Origin: a virus
IMG/VR virus record: IMGVR_UViG_3300036759_000185
Location: 1 to 26,336 of that record
Length of the DNA stretch: 26,336 bases
Direction: 5' to 3' (one strand)
The notes under the pieces: generated by a model
Databases searched by the model: none
Told to the model about the DNA's origin: nothing
The model's input: the letters and a program-made list of their open reading frames with translations, nothing else
Made by a program: the position numbers and the translations under genes
In this document: positions 3,793-12,172 of the stretch, in pieces
Position numbering within the stretch: position 1 is the stretch's first letter
Layout of the letters: every line of letters begins with the position of its first letter

Positions 3793-5523
3793 TCAACAGA
3801 AATACGTCGCAAACAGATAAATTTCGTAGGTGATAGTCGTTTGAATTGTGCCACCGGTATATTCCGGCACCACGGTAAAGCCGCCGCCGGTCGGATCGAG
3901 CCAACACACTCCCGGATTCCAGGCCGGTTTGTTCACGTTGATCGTGCAAGGTATCCGGATACTCGCCCAGTTCTGCGGCGCCACGGGTGGATTCGTAACG
4001 TTGAAAAAAATGCTGCCGCTACCAGCCAGTTTGATTGTGAAGCGCGTCGTACACCAGCAAATGGGACCAAACAGCAAATACTTACCGTAGACTACTGCCG
4101 CGCTCGCAATCGTCATACTGCCGCCTGGCGCGAATTGCGGAGTCCAGTCGAGCAATGCGCCCAGATTGACTTGATCCGGCGCTGCGAAGGTAGCCGCCGC
4201 ATCCAGCCGCAGGCCACCGGTCACGCGCACGCTAGAGGCTAGTTCCAGCCAATTCCCATTGGCCGCATCCGCCACCGTGACACGTGGCCCATCGGGAAAA
4301 TCCGGCGCCTGAAAATCGAGCGTCATCGTTTTCCCAAGCGCGCTCGTTAACGTGAGTGCCGACAAATCCGTCAGCGATGCTGGATCGCCTTTATCGCCCT
4401 TATCGCCTTTTGGTCCTTGTGGCCCCTCCGGTCCTTCCGGTCCCGGATCACCCTGCGGTCCTTGCGCACCGGTATCGCCGGGATCGCCTTTCGGCCCTTG
4501 CGGTCCCATATCACCGGGCGGCCCTTGCGCGCCGGCCGCTCCGGTATCACCCTTCGGCCCCTGCGCACCCGCGGCGCCGGGATCGCCTTTCGGCCCTTGC
4601 GCACCGGCCGCTCCGGTATCACCCTTCGGCCCCTGTGCACCGGCCGCACCGGTATCGCCCTTCGGCCCTTGCGCACCAGTCGCTCCCGAATCACCGGGCG
4701 GCCCTTGCGCACCCGCCGGGCCCGTGGCACCCGTCGGCCCCTGCGGCCCTTGCGGTCCCGGATCGCCGGCCGGACCCTGCACCGGTCCGGCATCCGCCCA
4801 TTCACTCCCACTCCACACCCAGAGATGGCCGTTATCTTCGGTGATGTACGCATCACCTGTTGCCGCGCCCGCGGCCGGCAAATCCGCTGCCGTCGCTACC
4901 ACGCCCTGTAACTCGAGGCCCGTTCCTTCCGGTCCTTGCGGCCCTTGCGGTCCCGGATCACCCTGCGGCCCCTGCGGTCCGGGATCGCCCGCCGGTCCCG
5001 TATCGCCGGCCGGTCCTGGAGGTCCCTCCGGTCCCGGAATCCCGCCTTCTTCGATGAAGGTATCAATCTGCTCCTGCATCGCTTCGACTTCGGCATCGAT
5101 CGTGCGCATCCAGGTTTCATACGGTTCCGGCGGTTCCACCGGCGCATCATCGAGCGGCGCCACCACGCGATAGACGAAACCAGGGAAGGTCAATTTTTCG
5201 CTCGACGTTTCCACATCCACGCTGGCCGAACAGGTGCCGGGAACCGAGATTTCACTGCCCACGATGTCATAGGCAATCGAACCGCTCACAGCATCCACGA
5301 CGCGCGCCGGACTGCGATCGATGACTCCATCCGGCCGCTCGAAATTGAGGTAAACGACGGCTTGCTCGCCGATGACATACGGCCGGTTGCGCGCCGTCAG
5401 AGACAGCCGCAACGGATAGGTATCCTGATCGCCGCGATAGTAAACCAGCTCCGTCGGTTTTGGACATTCCACCGCGTACAGCTCGAGTCGTACATCGTAG
5501 GGTTTCTCTTGTATCATCGTCAT
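3793..5523 (-). CDS. Tail fibre with BppU-like N-terminus and collagen repeats
   Basis: A 576-residue fibre. Residues 1-120 ([42 protein letters not shown]) resemble the immunoglobulin-like N-terminus of baseplate upper protein BppU, which anchors fibres to the tail tip. A short coiled coil (about 136-159) is followed by about 13 Gly-X-Y triplets (161-200), a small spacer domain (201-249, with [11 protein letters not shown], common in phage fibres), about 44 further triplets (250-381) and a globular C-terminus of about 190 residues likely to contact the host. Collagen stretches make trimeric stalks. The start overlaps the upstream stop (ATGA); ATG 5517 has equally good spacing from an aagg Shine-Dalgarno. 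Confidence 0.8.
4534..4677 (-). repeat. Four tandem 12-residue collagen units
   Basis: Within the fibre gene, residues 283-330 are four copies of [12 protein letters not shown] (the third has GDP in place of GDT), encoded by near-identical 36-nt units. Such tandem units readily expand or contract by recombination, so stalk length may vary between relatives. Confidence 0.85.
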
Positions 5524-5732
5524 CCTTCCCCTTCCGCAGCCTGCGCCAGGTGATACACAAACTTCATCAGGTGCGCGCCCAGCTCCGGCGATTCCCGCAA
5601 CAGCACAAGTAACAGCGCGACGGCTTCTCGCTCCGCTTGCGTGCGTGGAAACCAGCTCGCTGTTTCGAAGGCCTTGACATTCAGTGGCGGCCGGATCGGC
5701 CCTTCGGTCGGCCGCTTGCGCGCCTGCTTCAT
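5520..5732 (-). CDS. Small hypothetical protein
   Basis: A 70-residue protein from ATG 5732, which overlaps the previous stop (ATGA) and ends in an ATGA overlap with the fibre gene. The first 20 residues are basic and Pro-rich ([15 protein letters not shown]). The rest is helical ([20 protein letters not shown]). Longer in-frame translation upstream is a shadow of the neighbouring gene. The function is unknown. Confidence 0.55.
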
Positions 5733-5956
5733 GAAGGCCGTCCCTTCTCCTGCAGAACGGCCGGCTCCAGTTCGCGCAACTTGGCGCCGACCAATTCGAT
5801 CAGTTCCTGCTCGGCCGGCGTTAGCTTCCACGGTTCCCCCTGCAACGTGAGGCGCAGCACACCGCCGCGCGCGCAGACATGCCGGCACAGCACATGAATA
5901 CGCCAGCCCCAGAAACCAACTGGCAGTGTTGTCAGAAAGCACCGGCGCAGCATCAT
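5729..5956 (-). CDS. Small hypothetical protein downstream of the primase
   Basis: A 75-residue protein whose ATG overlaps the primase stop (ATGA). The N-terminal third is hydrophobic and Cys-containing ([27 protein letters not shown]). The C-terminal half is a polar helix pair ([20 protein letters not shown]). No family was recognised. Stop/start overlaps on both sides support it as a real operon member. Confidence 0.5.
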
Positions 5957-8115
5957 TGCACAAACCCCCGTTCGCGCATGGCCTCGAGCGCCTGCGGATT
6001 GATCCAGACCGGCCGGCCGTCATCATCACACGCCGCATGGAAACCTTCCTGCTCGAGCAGGTGTACGATGCGCCGCTGCATGTCGCGCGTCTGCAGATGC
6101 ACGGGAATCGCGCAAGCCTCGAGAAATTGATAGACCGACAGCTCCGGATGCTGCCTGGCGTAGTAACGAATTTTTTCCGACCAGGGATCGGTCACGAGAC
6201 GCGCCTGCTGCTCGCGTTCAAACAACGCGCGTGTCTCGGCTTTCGGCCACCAGCACACCTGCGCACGATAGAGCGATAGCGCTTCCGCCCAGATCTGCCA
6301 GCGATCGCGCTCGAGTGCCCGCAGGTCTACCGCGCCGGTCGCGACCGGCCAGGCCAGGCGCGCGCCTTCCTGGTAGAGGTAATGCCGTTCCTCCACCGTC
6401 CCGAGAAACACGCACTGCCGCGGATACGCCATCTTGCCCCAGCGCCCATGCGCCGGCCGGTACTGATCAAGCGGCCGCGTGAGAAACTGGCGTGCCTGTT
6501 CATACTGCAACTGGCGGCCGGCATCGGCCAGCGCCACCAGCCACACACCGCGCAATTGCTCGGCCGCTGCCTGCCACTCGAAGCGCGAGGGAAGCTGTGC
6601 CAGCAGATAGGACGCATCACCCGCCAGCACTTCCGCGGCGCGCTCGAGCTGCGCCGGCTGTGACCCTTCGAGCAACAGAATACTTTCCACCGCCGCGCCT
6701 GGCCGGAACAGACGCGCGATCGCGCCCACAAACCAGGCCACCGCGCACTCGTCCCAGTACAAAGCCTGATCTTCGGCGTAACGATGTTGCGCGCGCGATT
6801 CTGCACCAAAATAGTGCAGAAAAAAATTCTCCTGCAGGCGTTTCACGCCGTCCCAGCGTTCCGCTTCGATGCGTTCCCGCAGCGGATGCATCGCTTGCGA
6901 GCGCGCGACCAGCTCCACCGCGGCGCGCGCCACACCTTCCGGCAGCGTGGGCGTCAAGGTGCGTTGCAGCCACGTCAGGATGGAAAAGAAACGCTGCTCC
7001 TCGAGTTCGCCAGCGTGAATGCCGGCCGGCAGGCCTTTCTCGAGCACAATCTTTTCCCGAAACGCGTCATAGCGCAGTTTGCCGGTCCAGTCCGGATGTT
7101 CGCGTAAAGCGCAGGCTGCATTCGCGACATTCGGATGCGGCCGGCGCACCCGGTTGAGTGTCAGGCCCTCGCGCCAGACCTCCTGTTCGTTCGCCTGGTC
7201 GGCCGCCGCTGCCGCCAGGCCCAGCACCGCCGGCGATTCAATGCGGCCCCAATGCGCGCACCGCGAGCAGTACTCTTCGCCGAAATCGCTGCGCACGCGT
7301 TGACAGGTCACCGGTCCGGCATCTGCTAACGCATGCCGGATTTTTTTCTCCGTGTCGCGGCGCCGGTAACCGGCATGCGGCCGGCTAAAGGTATGCGCCG
7401 CTTCCTCCCCATCGCGCGTGCGCGCAACGACCGATAGCATGGCGTACCATTCCGGTTCGGCGAGCGTGGCCGCATCGTCGCGTGTATGCCGCAGCCAGGC
7501 GCAACCCTCGAGAATCGGACCGAGCAACGGCGCCGGCCCCTTCGCTTTTTGCTCGGCACGTTCTGGCGCCGTTTCCTTTGCGGCCGCCTGGCGCCAGGCT
7601 TCCGGCAACTCGGCCAGCGCCACAAACCAGCCCTGCAATCCATCCCAGGTATATTCGAGGCCCGTATCCGGATGGATCGACGGAGGCGCTACGACATACG
7701 TGCCCGCTGCGCGCAGATCGACATGCGGCGCCAGGCGCCCGCGCGCTTCGAAATCCACCGGCACACGAAAATAGAAATGCGTGCCACCGGTACCCGTCGA
7801 AACGGTACGCGTCTCCGGCAGCTTGCCATACTTCTGCTCGAGTCCGAAGAATTCCTCGCGGCCCGGTTTCGCGTGACTCACATCGACATCGATCACGAGC
7901 AGGCCGACTCCGGCCGCCAGACCGATATTCGCCTGCGGTTCCCGCTGCCACCACTGCCGGATTTGAAATTCATCCGTCGTCGCATCGAGCACGCCGCGGC
8001 CGCCTTCGCGCTCGGGAATCAGCGGTACTTTCGCACGCACGCCAAGCGGCAGGACACGCAGGCCGGCCCGCGCATAGGCCAGCGCGGCACGTAGCAAACG
8101 GTTCATTTCCGCCAT
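5953..8115 (-). CDS. Bifunctional primase-polymerase fused to a VirE-like domain with a degenerate P-loop
   Basis: A 720-residue replication protein. Residues about 10-170 are a Prim-Pol domain with its catalytic set: LLVIDVD (D76, D78), STGTGGTHFYF with His113, D133 and VVAPPS (143-146). Cysteines at 205, 271, 283 and 286 suit the zinc-linked region that follows in this family. Residues about 400-615 match the VirE/DUF-type ATPase by order (EAERWDG, YWDECAVAWFVGAIAR, LRGVWLVALAD, YPRQCVFLGT, RDRWQIWAEAL). The Walker A site, however, reads LLLEGSQPAQLER (481-492 region), lacking the GKS/T, and the Walker B acidic residues are altered. Priming and polymerisation may be retained while ATP-driven unwinding is probably lost. 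The position inside the late operon is unusual. ATG 8115 follows a GGGGT Shine-Dalgarno. Confidence 0.85.
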   Translation of the reverse strand: MAEMNRLLRAALAYARAGLRVLPLGVRAKVPLIPEREGGRGVLDATTDEFQIRQWWQREPQANIGLAAGVGLLVIDVDVSHAKPGREEFFGLEQKYGKLPETRTVSTGTGGTHFYFRVPVDFEARGRLAPHVDLRAAGTYVVAPPSIHPDTGLEYTWDGLQGWFVALAELPEAWRQAAAKETAPERAEQKAKGPAPLLGPILEGCAWLRHTRDDAATLAEPEWYAMLSVVARTRDGEEAAHTFSRPHAGYRRRDTEKKIRHALADAGPVTCQRVRSDFGEEYCSRCAHWGRIESPAVLGLAAAAADQANEQEVWREGLTLNRVRRPHPNVANAACALREHPDWTGKLRYDAFREKIVLEKGLPAGIHAGELEEQRFFSILTWLQRTLTPTLPEGVARAAVELVARSQAMHPLRERIEAERWDGVKRLQENFFLHYFGAESRAQHRYAEDQALYWDECAVAWFVGAIARLFRPGAAVESILLLEGSQPAQLERAAEVLAGDASYLLAQLPSRFEWQAAAEQLRGVWLVALADAGRQLQYEQARQFLTRPLDQYRPAHGRWGKMAYPRQCVFLGTVEERHYLYQEGARLAWPVATGAVDLRALERDRWQIWAEALSLYRAQVCWWPKAETRALFEREQQARLVTDPWSEKIRYYARQHPELSVYQFLEACAIPVHLQTRDMQRRIVHLLEQEGFHAACDDDGRPVWINPQALEAMRERGFVQ

Positions 8116-8124
8116 ACCAAACCC

Positions 8125-8535
8125 CTACCCCGCCCGTTCCGTTGCAACCTGGCGCGTCCTGGCGTCAAGACCTGCAGGGGATGGACCCGATTCCGGATGC
8201 CGGCGCACCCATTCCTGCAACTGGCGCCGAATCTCGCCGTCGATTTCTTCCTGCCGCTGGCCTTGATAATCGAAGGCCCGCCAGTCGGTGATCTGTTCTT
8301 CGAACAATTTCGTCACTGCCACCGCCAGCGAAATGAGCGCGTCTTTTCGCGTCAACTCTTCGGCCGCACCGTCCCAGTAAGCAGCCCAGCGCTTCGCGCC
8401 GATGGCCACCCGTTCCAGCCGCACCGGCACCGGTTGCGCGAAACGCAGAGCGAGCAGATTGCCGGCCCCGGAGCGCGGCTGCCGGAAGAACGCGCCTACG
8501 AAATGGATGTTCGCCGGTACCCCTAAGCGCGGCAT
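8125..8535 (-). CDS. Hypothetical protein between tail-tip and primase genes
   Basis: A 136-residue protein. The N-terminal half contains strands (NIHFVGAFF, PVPVRLERVAIG); the C-terminal half is charged and helical (KDALISLAVAVTKLFEEQI, then RQEEIDGEIRRQLQEWVRRH). It ends 9 nt before the primase start. No family was recognised. A replication-accessory or tail-tip accessory role would both fit the position. Confidence 0.5.
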   Translation of the reverse strand: MPRLGVPANIHFVGAFFRQPRSGAGNLLALRFAQPVPVRLERVAIGAKRWAAYWDGAAEELTRKDALISLAVAVTKLFEEQITDWRAFDYQGQRQEEIDGEIRRQLQEWVRRHPESGPSPAGLDARTRQVATERAG

Positions 8536-8538
8536 CGC

Positions 8539-8736
8539 TTAAAACCCCTCCGCTTCGCGCCGCTCACGCCGCCAGGCCTCGAGAATCGACTGCAAGCGCA
8601 TTTCGAGTGCATACCAGTCGAATTGGCGTGCCGCTTCCGGATGAAGGATGGCCGCTTCTCCGAGCGCCGTCAGCAATCCCACCAGTTCTGCCGGGGAGAA
8701 TTCGAGCGCAATCAGTTTTTCATCCGCACTGCTCAT
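8539..8736 (-). CDS. Small hypothetical protein related to the 2518-2739 product
   Basis: A 65-residue protein whose ATG overlaps the stop of the hub gene (ATGA). LEFSPAELVGLLTALG (about residues 11-26) aligns without gaps to LQFTDAELDLLTFSLG of the early protein at 2518-2739. A helical, Arg/Glu-rich tail follows (WYALEMRLQSILEAWRRERR). Function is unknown. The shared motif suggests a small adaptor family used twice by this phage. Confidence 0.55.
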   Translation of the reverse strand: MSSADEKLIALEFSPAELVGLLTALGEAAILHPEAARQFDWYALEMRLQSILEAWRRERREAEGF

Positions 8737-10025
8737 AAGCCCGAGGTACTCGCTGCCGTCGTCGCACTCACTTCCGCCGCAATCTGCGCCATGGCATCCG
8801 CCAGCGTCGGATTGTAATCACCCACTGTCAAACGCACCTCCGTCGTCGCCGCCCGGTCCGGCATCTGACTGAGCACGACGCGCTGCACTTCCATTTCTTT
8901 CGCTTGCCAGCCGTAGCGCGCCGCCGTCAACCGCACCAGGCCGCCTGGCTGTGCACCGACCGTCCAGCAGACCAGCTCGCCGCGTTCATTCGGCGTCGAG
9001 GCGCGCGCCAGGTCCGTCTGCGCAAACGTGAGCGCGGTATCGGCATGCGTCACGCGCAGATCGTAATCGACCCACTGCAGCAGGCCGTAACGATCGATCG
9101 AATCCTGATCGTAGATATGCGCCGTCACACCATCGCCCACAAACGTGACATCATTCGCCGGCGCAAAAAAATCCTCGCTATAGGATTCGACCCGGAAAGA
9201 CGGCTGGCCGGCTGTATCCGTCAACTCGAGAACCGCTATAGTCGGATTCTCGCCATAGGTAAATAAACCCTGCACATCGATGAACCAGACCCGGCCGGTC
9301 GCTTTCGCAACGGCATCCAGAATCTGCGTCACAGATTGATATTCGAAATTCAGCTCGAGCACCGTCGTGTGCGCAATCGACCCCAGGCGCAGAATGGAAG
9401 GCGTTAAGCCGGTACCCGTCAGGACATCGCGGATGATTTGATCGTCGTACCAGCCAAGCGTGGTATAGTCTTTCGTCCAGGTGCGCCCATCGGTGAACAG
9501 CCGGTAATCGCGGCAGGCATAGGAAACTTCGACCGTGCCATCGAGCGCGCCCAGATCCGACATGGCGCGCGAAGCCACAAAGCCGGCAAACAGCGTCTGC
9601 GGAGCTCCGGCCGCCAGTTGCATCCGCGGCAGCGACCAGGGCGCAAACAGCGGAGCGCCGAGATAGACGGCATCCACGGCAATGTTGAAGACGGTATCCT
9701 CCACCGAGAATCCGCACTCAAACCAGATTTCCGTCACACGCTCGGAATCGAAGGCGGCCGAAGGCGCCGGCAGCCGGTCCGGACCCAGTTTGTAGAAGAT
9801 GAGATAGGGATTCGGCAAAGCATCCTGATTACCGGAAATCTGTGAGCCGTACCAGCTCGCGCCCGCGGCATCCACCAGGCGCGCCCGAAAGAACCAGGCG
9901 CCGCCTGGCCCGCCTTTCGGCCATTCGACCAGCAGCGATAGATAACAGTCCTGAAAATCGGTCGGCACGAAATGCGCCAGCCGCACCTGACCACTACCAT
10001 TCTTTCGATTGACCTGAATCAGCAA
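8733..10025 (-). CDS. Tail tip hub / Tal-like protein
   Basis: A 430-residue protein. Residues 1-115 look like a beta-sandwich of carbohydrate-binding type (SLLVEWPKGG, AWFFRARLVDAAG, then EIWFECGFSVEDT, AVDAVYLG). The middle has the hub-like stretch WYDDQIIRDVLTGTGLTP, LELNFEYQSVTQILDAVA and TGRVWFIDVQGLFTYG, which recalls baseplate hub/tail-associated proteins that close the tube and contact the host surface. No peptidase motif was seen. The only start consistent with full length is TTG 10025, two bases after the upstream stop, with a weak GTGAG Shine-Dalgarno. The N-terminal domain seems to lack its first strands. Confidence 0.6.
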   Translation of the reverse strand: MLIQVNRKNGSGQVRLAHFVPTDFQDCYLSLLVEWPKGGPGGAWFFRARLVDAAGASWYGSQISGNQDALPNPYLIFYKLGPDRLPAPSAAFDSERVTEIWFECGFSVEDTVFNIAVDAVYLGAPLFAPWSLPRMQLAAGAPQTLFAGFVASRAMSDLGALDGTVEVSYACRDYRLFTDGRTWTKDYTTLGWYDDQIIRDVLTGTGLTPSILRLGSIAHTTVLELNFEYQSVTQILDAVAKATGRVWFIDVQGLFTYGENPTIAVLELTDTAGQPSFRVESYSEDFFAPANDVTFVGDGVTAHIYDQDSIDRYGLLQWVDYDLRVTHADTALTFAQTDLARASTPNERGELVCWTVGAQPGGLVRLTAARYGWQAKEMEVQRVVLSQMPDRAATTEVRLTVGDYNPTLADAMAQIAAEVSATTAASTSGL

Positions 10026-10027
10026 GA

Positions 10028-10579
10028 TCAGCTCACCCGGTAACTCACGTTAAACATGCATTCGTTCACACCCGCCTCAAACGGAATACCGGCTCCGCCC
10101 GGCATACCCATCACCAAACGTTTGTTGGGTGCATCGACCCAGGCCGGCGTCAGTAACCACTGCCCGCTTGGCACGAGCAGCGCCGCCGGCGCCAGGATTC
10201 CGCCCACAAAACCAGCCGGCGCCAGCGCCAGGCTGACGTAGACAAAAGCATCCAGCGTGCCGCCGAGGGTAATCATGAAATGCAATTGCGTCAGGCATTC
10301 CGCGCCACGCCGCAGGTATTGCGCCGAAACCACGTGCAGCGCGCTCGCCGTCATGGCGCCCGCGGCCGTAATCGTAGGCGTGTAGGATTGCCAGTCGGCG
10401 CCGAACTTGACCGTGTCCGGCAGCGTGACGGTTCCCGTTGCCGTGAAATCACCGACATTCGTTAAGGCATAGCCGCCCGCATCCACATCGCCGCCCCAGA
10501 GCTGCAGGTTCTCGAGCAGCGCGTTGTACTGATTCGCGGTCGAAGCTTCGCCTGCCTGCACCGGCGCCGGCCAGCTCAT
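10028..10579 (-). CDS. Short tail fibre/tip protein
   Basis: A 183-residue protein. The N-terminus MSWPAPVQAGEASTANQYNA, then WGGDVDAGGYALTNV, is shared with the next fibre protein (10576-11952) and is probably the attachment module. The rest is strand-rich and Gly/Ala-rich (DWQSYTPTITAAGAMTA, QYLRRGAECLTQLHFMIT) like a receptor-binding head. The start overlaps the preceding stop (ATGA). Confidence 0.6.
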   Translation of the reverse strand: MSWPAPVQAGEASTANQYNALLENLQLWGGDVDAGGYALTNVGDFTATGTVTLPDTVKFGADWQSYTPTITAAGAMTASALHVVSAQYLRRGAECLTQLHFMITLGGTLDAFVYVSLALAPAGFVGGILAPAALLVPSGQWLLTPAWVDAPNKRLVMGMPGGAGIPFEAGVNECMFNVSYRVS

Positions 10580-11952
10580 TTTTCACCCTCCGGTGCCCAG
10601 GGAATCAGGCCTTCCCAGATTTCTGAATCCGATTTCTTGCCGAAGACGTGCAGACCATCGGCATCCGCCACAAAATTCACCGCACCGATCGGTATCGTCT
10701 GCTCCGGCGGATCGGTTGCCGGCTCCGCGGCTTGTGTTTTCGCGGCGCGCATGTGCGCGCGAATCTCAGCGAGCGAAGCGCCCGAGCCATGCGCTACCCA
10801 GGTGAGGCCGCTCACATTGCCGGAGGCATAGATATTGCCTTGCGTGCGCATGTTGCCGGTTGCCGGGTAAAACGTAGGATCGGGCGCAAACTGCCCGTTA
10901 TTCAGAATCTGAAAGTAATTCGTGGCCGTCCCGGACTTCGTCTGGTAGAAATCCGATGCCGTCGTAATCCGCCCGCCCGCCCAAAGACCACCATTAATAG
11001 CTAAGGACGCGGTAGCCCCGCCGCCGAAGTCCATCGTCGGCTGTGCGCCGTTGAATGAGAACTTCATGAGTTTGCCCGAAGCACTCAACTGGAAGGGACT
11101 GGAAAACGTGCAGACACCGTTCGCTGTGTTTGCCGCGAAACCATCGCATTTGATCGGGCTCGTAAAGTGCACGGAACCATCCCCGCCACTGGCCGCAATC
11201 GGCGCATCGTTTTGCATGGTCAGATTCACGCTGGCCACCACGCCGCCGCCGGTAAATTGCACCGCCGCGTTGTCGAAATGGATGCCGCCGTTTGCGCGCA
11301 CGAGTAGCGGCTGCCCGATCGCCGCATCCGCCGCACTAGGAGAGATTTGGATAAAGGAGCCCGCCGAACTTTGCGCCGTCACCGCCAGGCCCGCCAGCGC
11401 ACCCGCCACCGTCGCACTATCCGTCGTCGTGAGCTTGCGCACCCGCAAATCGCGTTCCGCGCCTTCCGCGCTGCAGAGCTTCACCGTGTTGGCATCCGCG
11501 CGCAGAAACCCGACTTCCATCGATTCCGCCACCAGGTCATAACCTTCCGTCCAGCCGAACCAGCCGCCCACCGGCATCACGAGTAACGTCTGCTGCTGCC
11601 GGCCATAGGCATACATCCCCGCCACAATTTGCCCGACCGAATAATCCGCAAAGAACCCCCAGCCCGGATCGCGCGTATCACCGTTCGATCCGAAAGCATA
11701 TTTATGCGCGCCCGCCTGGCGGTTCTCGCAGACAATGTAAGTCACGCTGGCATTGGAAGTAACCGTCATCGGCGTACCGTTGCTGTCGCCGCCATCCGCG
11801 ACGACTTGTTTGCTGGACACCTGCGCCACATTCGAAACTTTGTAATTGCCGGCATCCACATCGCCGCCCCACGTCTTGAGCGCCGCCACCAGTGCGTTAT
11901 ATTGCGCGGCCGTCGCCGTCTGTCCCGGTACGACTGTGCTAGGCCAGGCCAT
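10576..11952 (-). CDS. Tail fibre/tip protein with repetitive beta region
   Basis: A 458-residue protein from ATG 11952. The N-terminus (MAWPSTVVPGQTATAAQYNA, then WGGDVDAGNYKVSNV) matches that of the following gene. A long beta-rich middle of Gly/Ser/Thr strands (VVASVNLTMQND, SVHFTSPIKCDGFAANT, ASLAINGGLWAGG) resembles fibre shafts. A C-terminal segment has a short coiled coil (LAEIRAHMRAAKTQAAE) and a capping strand pair (VNFVADADGLHVFG). Upstream in-frame codons are out of frame with the real gene at 11939-12172 and are excluded. Confidence 0.62.
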   Translation of the reverse strand: MAWPSTVVPGQTATAAQYNALVAALKTWGGDVDAGNYKVSNVAQVSSKQVVADGGDSNGTPMTVTSNASVTYIVCENRQAGAHKYAFGSNGDTRDPGWGFFADYSVGQIVAGMYAYGRQQQTLLVMPVGGWFGWTEGYDLVAESMEVGFLRADANTVKLCSAEGAERDLRVRKLTTTDSATVAGALAGLAVTAQSSAGSFIQISPSAADAAIGQPLLVRANGGIHFDNAAVQFTGGGVVASVNLTMQNDAPIAASGGDGSVHFTSPIKCDGFAANTANGVCTFSSPFQLSASGKLMKFSFNGAQPTMDFGGGATASLAINGGLWAGGRITTASDFYQTKSGTATNYFQILNNGQFAPDPTFYPATGNMRTQGNIYASGNVSGLTWVAHGSGASLAEIRAHMRAAKTQAAEPATDPPEQTIPIGAVNFVADADGLHVFGKKSDSEIWEGLIPWAPEGEK

Positions 11953-12172
11953 TCTGTGCGACTCCGAATAGCTCACTCTGCGGCTCGGCCACCACTTCCA
12001 GCAGCACCAGCAGACGATCTTCCTCGAGATGGCAGCGGCCGCGAAAACCCTGCTGCTCCGCGAGCAGTTGCAGCGCGCCTTGTATCGCACCCTGCGCCAT
12101 CGCAATGACTTCCCGCTGCCGGCGAAAGAACGCCTGTTCGGCCGCACTCAATTCGTATGTTTTCAGGCCCAT
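11939..12172 (-). CDS. Small helical protein in the tail-tip cluster
   Basis: A 77-residue protein, mostly helix: YELSAAEQAFFRRQREVIAM, AIQGALQLLAEQQG, then a strand LVLLEVV. A Shine-Dalgarno-like AGGA lies 6 nt before ATG 12172. It overlaps the upstream gene by 10 nt and the downstream fibre start by 14 nt. No family was recognised; it may be a small assembly adaptor. Confidence 0.5.
   Translation of the reverse strand: MGLKTYELSAAEQAFFRRQREVIAMAQGAIQGALQLLAEQQGFRGRCHLEEDRLLVLLEVVAEPQSELFGVAQNGLA

Follow-up and report, generated by a model that had tools for sequence, protein, structure and literature searches.

The window, a stretch of 26,336 nucleotides from IMG/VR virus record IMGVR_UViG_3300036759_000185, encodes a protein in which a primase-polymerase (Prim-Pol) domain is fused to a C-terminal domain that descends from the VapE family and has its fold yet, judged by its motifs, is no working helicase. 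About an even chance is given to the reading that this VapE helicase has turned into a pseudo-enzyme and would act as a passive DNA collar, with unwinding left to RepA and host DnaB. Prim-Pol/VirE fusions are already known (PMC5862659, PMC8065100), as are helicase-less plasmid primases; what appears to be new is a fusion with a dead but retained helicase half. No description of an ATPase-dead but retained VapE/VirE half in a Prim-Pol fusion was found in the literature consulted, chiefly non-subscription papers.

Four other IMG/VR records encode the 720-aa protein (97, 76, 77, and 76% identity), with the frame open in all five clade members. In a tree, the five proteins grouped together with full support, and the stem of the group was long (2.35 changes per column); a single loss followed by fast change is a reading that fits this stem. 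When the clade alignment, the AAA+ segment, RepA, the tape measure, and the tail-region gene were used as queries, the same records came back; beyond the clade, these scans yielded one 39% match to Prim-Pol only (L021) and a fragment (L190) ending before the Prim-Pol gene. The clade is a small lineage of uncultured phages. Between the window gene and its counterpart in L002, nucleotide differences numbered 0 to 7 per 120 bases before codon 440 and 7 to 20 per 120 over most of the rest, a step that suggests a recombination junction inside the gene.

The Prim-Pol domain scored 137.6 bits against PF09250 (curated cut-off, 22.8 bits). Catalytic motifs I (DxD/E), II (sxH), and III (hD) were all present, as D76/D78, H113, and D133, and from these residues the site is predicted to be intact, as had been claimed in the initial annotation. 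The AlphaFold (AF2) model of the protein had a mean pLDDT of 80.8 and was well defined in Prim-Pol and from residue 311 onward but poor at approximately residues 183 to 310. A Pfam scan of the window's own linker module (residues 193 to 309) gave no match; the module is weakly PriCT-2-like in a relative and is elsewhere fused to D5_N/DUF5906 and DUF927 helicases (Pfam annotations of L006 and L008).

Table 1. Features of the Prim-Pol/VapE gene, its neighbors, and the RepA genes of two relatives (positions are those of the window unless a locus is named)
Feature	Position	Strand	Evidence or remark
Prim-Pol/pseudo-VapE fusion, 720 aa	5953..8115	-	ORF from ATG to TGA; kept in four relatives, 76-97%
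Prim-Pol domain, residues 11-172	7600..8085	-	PF09250 E=6e-40; model matches ORF904 primase-polymerase 1rni, Z 13.2
Prim-Pol motif I, D76-V-D78	7882..7890	-	Both Asp invariant in clade; aligns with DxD of 8 other fusions
Prim-Pol motif II, H113 (GGTH113)	7777..7779	-	Invariant in clade; matches 8 other fusions
Prim-Pol motif III, D133	7717..7719	-	Invariant in clade; matches 8 other fusions
PriCT-like, Cys-containing linker module, residues 193-309	7189..7539	-	42% identity to L006, 31-32% to L007/L008
VapE-like (SF3/AAA+) domain, residues 311-660	6136..7185	-	PF05272 E=2e-35; AF2 model matches 7pds
Clade-specific insertion, residues 441-451	6763..6795	-	Mostly invariant; candidate new interface
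Lost Walker A, GSQPAQLER (484-492)	6640..6666	-	Relatives read GxQGxxKS/T
Lost Walker B, LVALADA (526-532)	6520..6540	-	First Glu to Ala, second to Asp; relatives read E(L/I/M)(A/G)E
Retained pre-sensor-1 hairpin DQYRPAHGR (550-558), putative DNA-binding	6442..6468	-	Alignment and analogy with NrS-1 KN hairpin
Lost sensor 1, GTVEE (572-576)	6388..6402	-	Asn575 to Glu; GTTN becomes GTVE
Arginine-finger motif GARLAWP (584-590)	6346..6366	-	R586 kept, R587 to Leu; relatives read RR(F/Y)WP
Putative tail-tip/hub protein	8733..10025	-	Position only; kept in 5/5 records
Small ORF, 65 aa	8539..8736	-	Conserved; overlaps end of preceding tail-region gene
Small ORF directly upstream, 9-bp gap	8125..8535	-	Kept in 5/5 records
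Small conserved ORF directly downstream	5729..5956	-	4-bp stop/start overlap with Prim-Pol gene
Collagen-like tail-fiber protein	3793..5523	-	PHROG tail protein/fiber matches
RepA_C initiators	L019:2930-3976; L016:1138-2124	+; -	Two near-complete relatives

ATP site of the VapE domain

The VapE half scored 123 bits against PF05272 (cut-off, 25 bits), and its model, a monomer, matched 7pds with a Z score of 30.5 across 380 residues. Across the five clade members, the Walker A lysine was replaced by L, V, or M and the neighboring serine/threonine by E or L, and P-loop Gly487 was also lost; within the clade, the old P-loop reads GSQPAQLER, GAQPAQLER, GGRPSEVLA, or GGRPAEMLE. The first Walker B glutamate had become A, L, or V and the second aspartate, the sensor-1 asparagine had become E or A, and D582 and T583 were likewise lost. 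R587, which aligns with R556 of the NrS-1 polymerase, was leucine in all five; R586 aligns with NrS-1 R555. The readings GSQPAQLER for the P-loop, VALAD (527 to 531) for Walker B, and RLAWP (586 to 590) for the arginine motif in the initial annotation all proved correct, and the loss is wider than described there, with the sensor-1 asparagine missed. A second, intact P-loop was looked for in the 720-aa protein, and none was found, with no GK[S/T] anywhere. Judged from these motifs, the VapE domain is very unlikely to bind or hydrolyze ATP in the usual way.

The 160 loci of the comparison set were retrieved through two motifs other than the P-loop (PRQC-V/M-F and QIWAEA), which left the P-loop unselected in the sample. 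VapE relatives outside the clade numbered 164 (39 after removal of those more than 75% alike). The Walker A K-[S/T], the sensor-1 asparagine, and the RR pair were each present in all 164, and the first Walker B glutamate was kept in 163; full loss was found in all five clade members. In a further sample, drawn from two bacterial phyla, the Walker A lysine was present in every VapE domain with a readable segment, and S or T always stood beside it, except in a distant sequence (L222) reading GKD. Since the survey sample was rich in Pseudomonas and close relatives, rarer dead VapE domains may occur elsewhere.

A sequencing or assembly error at the P-loop, for which nothing spoke, was rejected, its probability being negligible: four separate records carry all of the losses with differing residues, and none has GKS at the site.

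It is very improbable that the domain is still a motor, binding nucleotide another way or serving in a mixed ring as its inactive member. Inactive AAA+ subunits do occur in mixed rings, as in cellular clamp loaders and ORC, but here all ATP-site elements were lost together, and the near-complete relatives yielded neither a second VapE nor any other helicase. A search of the five records with the P-loop pattern [AG]x4GK[ST] matched only spurious-looking frames overlapping known genes, and the terminase was the only other ATPase identified.

Conservation and selection outside the ATP site

Sixty-eight columns were near invariant (at least 85% conserved in the nonredundant relatives), of which the clade kept 45 unchanged and lost 16, with the nonconservative losses mostly in the ATP-site motifs. 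For the AAA+ core without the P-loop, dN/dS was 0.07 to 0.16 in all pairs, and for the Prim-Pol domain it was 0.03 to 0.13. The 14-residue P-loop segment was 36% identical between the two subclades, was among the least conserved stretches of that length in residues 311 to 660, and gave a rough dN/dS of 0.44 to 0.96 (two inter-subclade pairs computed over 14 residues). By these sequence comparisons, the VapE scaffold outside the P-loop is under purifying selection and the old P-loop drifts, which bears out the earlier description of the domain as otherwise preserved in the form of a non-ATPase scaffold. Because the ATP site is wholly lost and the rest is under selection, the former motor is probably now a passive DNA-holding or partner-binding collar.

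The same data bear on the alternative that the helicase became useless once a plasmid RepA was taken up and has since been decaying, Prim-Pol (or nothing) remaining functional. The episode of fast change on the clade stem and the drifting P-loop segment agree with such decay; selection on the rest of the VapE domain at close to the Prim-Pol level largely refutes it, and the frames open in all five members and the many near-invariant columns left unchanged also argue against it, so that we regard it as quite improbable.

Retained features include the pre-sensor-1 hairpin, kept in the clade as D-x-Y-R-P-x-H-x-R, with a DNA-binding role that is putative and based on alignment. The clade-specific insertion adjoins HRYAEDQALYWDECAVAW, identical in all five clade members.

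Genomic setting and plasmid-type initiator

Genes for TerS, TerL, portal, capsid, and major tail protein were recognized upstream of the Prim-Pol gene in the window. The Prim-Pol gene itself belongs to the late strand, and its position, following the tail genes, is constant across the five records (shared gene order). The putative tail-tip protein and the tape measure had no family or phage match and were assigned by position, the structure model of the former (pLDDT, 37) was unusable, and the small ORF immediately upstream of the Prim-Pol gene had no Pfam or PHROG match. The gene had been placed in the late operon between tail-tip and fiber genes in the initial annotation; the late-operon position held, the tail-tip gene is one by position only, and a fiber gene follows only in the window and G001. 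The collagen-like Gly-X-Y repeat fiber was absent at the matching place in the other three relatives. Two window genes (10028 to 10579 and 10576 to 12147) share an N-terminal module, QYNAL..L..WGGDVDAG.Y, which is probably a common attachment domain of tail proteins. A promoter scan of positions 5000 to 10700 was uninformative (three sites versus 1.3 expected, all on the opposite strand). Its placement among the late genes, with late transcription read from gene order alone, suggests that the enzyme amplifies DNA in the lytic phase or fills gaps late.

A role outside replication, in defense, in packaging priming, or as a virion-carried enzyme, was also weighed, the first and the priming of packaging having been proposed in the initial annotation. 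The fixed place downstream of the tail genes, with neighbors that overlap or nearly abut, would suit such a role, which is nonetheless unlikely: there was no PADLOC defense match and no signal of virion association, and the conserved Prim-Pol motifs and the plasmid-type RepA of the near-complete relatives point to replication. A replication role is simplest because no other primase or polymerase was recognized in these relatives.

Those relatives are G002 and G004; the ends of G002 lie approximately 1.2 kb apart on the shared map, which gives a genome of approximately 27.5 kb. Both carry a RepA_C initiator on the opposite strand (PF04796 for the G004 copy; the G002 copy is 65% identical to it). 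The best plasmid matches of RepA include Granulicella (Acidobacteriota) plasmids at 42 to 44%, and among 50,697 phage records there was one match, a weak one. A plasmid initiator together with a virion gene set was thus found in G002 and G004; the corresponding region lies outside the window, G001, and G003. The window starts just inside that region, so that its phage is presumed, from the relatives, to have RepA as well. The clade is possibly a phage-plasmid group, perhaps of Acidobacteriota. The other genes scanned against Pfam gave HNH, RepA_C, HTH, RHH, and Tyr recombinase matches only; no partition gene was among them, and a Tyr recombinase was present. The two ends of G004 (L019:1-2881 and L020:12637-15554) are divergent copies, 77 to 89% identical, of a segment with an HNH nuclease and a Tyr recombinase, which reflects either tandem related elements or a chimeric contig.

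Possible roles of the VapE domain

Under the collar reading, the pseudo-VapE part would still sit on single-stranded DNA as a complete or partial ring and would serve as a passive tether keeping Prim-Pol on its template. RepA would open the origin, as in plasmids with such initiators, and host DnaB, loaded by RepA, would do the unwinding, while Prim-Pol would make or extend primers. Loading of DnaB is a known activity of the RepA family. A fuller version is more tentative and rather doubtful as a whole: a self-contained primase-helicase would have been exchanged for plasmid RepA plus host DnaB, and the old SF3 ring would have become an ATP-independent processivity collar for Prim-Pol in the lytic phase of a phage-plasmid lineage.

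By analogy, the nearest precedent for a pseudo-VapE collar would be the NrS-1 polymerase (PDB 6k9e/6k9c, 6a9w), which likewise combines a Prim-Pol, a helix-bundle region, and an SF3-type C-terminal domain and matches both halves by fold. NrS-1 differs in that its Walker A reads GKQGTGKG and in having (d)NTPase and DNA-unwinding activity (PMC7102993). Nucleotide hydrolysis is abolished in its K453A mutant and reduced 15-fold in R556A and 7-fold in R555A; none of the three unwinds DNA any longer (PMC7102993). Helicase-dead mutants still polymerize, and K453A fills gaps with lower processivity (PMC7102993). The NrS-1 C-terminal region formed a hexameric ring in crystals without bound nucleotide (PMC7102993), and the DNA affinity of the C-terminal domain has been proposed to raise processivity (PMC8718748). 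A passive collar brings no obvious gain, since the helicase-dead NrS-1 mutants polymerize less well than the wild type.

The main rival to the collar is that the pseudo-VapE domain is chiefly a protein-binding platform, an adaptor coupling Prim-Pol to host DnaB or phage RepA. Some indirect weight goes to the platform for a host helicase, first suggested in the initial annotation: the near-complete relatives encode RepA, and no further helicase was found in them. The insertion beside the identical segment offers a candidate interface. Against an adaptor, the conserved residues belong to the scaffold common to VapE proteins, putative DNA-binding hairpin included, and we consider it less probable than the collar.

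The role of the helicase domain fused to Prim-Pol has been described as unclear (PMC8718748). In a natural clade with a dead ATPase but a kept domain, motor and scaffold come apart without engineered mutants, and the question can be tested directly. The clade is also an example of a phage lineage that combines a plasmid initiator with a replicative SF3-type pseudo-helicase.

Other known systems share parts of this arrangement. PriRep1 (PDB 7pds, "Similar to D. nodosus vapE"), a VapE protein solved with double-stranded DNA as six chains, has the same family and fold, with a sequence match over window residues 329 to 594; it differs in its intact GGQGVGKS Walker A, acidic Walker B, GTTN sensor 1, and NRRFFP, and its solved chain of 477 residues matches the VapE part only. 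The best VapE matches among annotated phages, in Marinobacter phage PS3 and Pseudomonas phage LPPA36 (approximately 30% identity), differ in an apparently Toprim-type rather than Prim-Pol primase half and have all ATP-site motifs intact. Cyanophage S-2L PrimPol is a phage Prim-Pol with PriCT-2 and a VirE-family domain, set beside the clade here by description rather than by Walker motifs; the parts of the source consulted do not describe it as ATPase dead (PMC8065100). Extrachromosomal prophages of the RepA type (mycobacteriophage Miko and others) have a plasmid-like RepA in a tailed phage, transcribed against the direction of the virion genes, and are likened to the clade by that description rather than by PF04796 membership; a pairing of RepA with a Prim-Pol/pseudo-helicase is not stated in the portions of the source consulted (PMC7157519). 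Helicase-less plasmid primases (RepE/RepS, PrimHYQ, and ColE2 Rep) are likewise replication primases of mobile elements without an active NTPase helicase of their own (PMC5862659), but they lack the helicase domain altogether, whereas the clade keeps a dead one. Short Prim-Pol-like frames of 279 to 297 codons (L199, L200, L203-L205, L207, L209, L212, and L213), 43 to 46% identical to the window's Prim-Pol domain, were observed in genomes of the phylum of G005.
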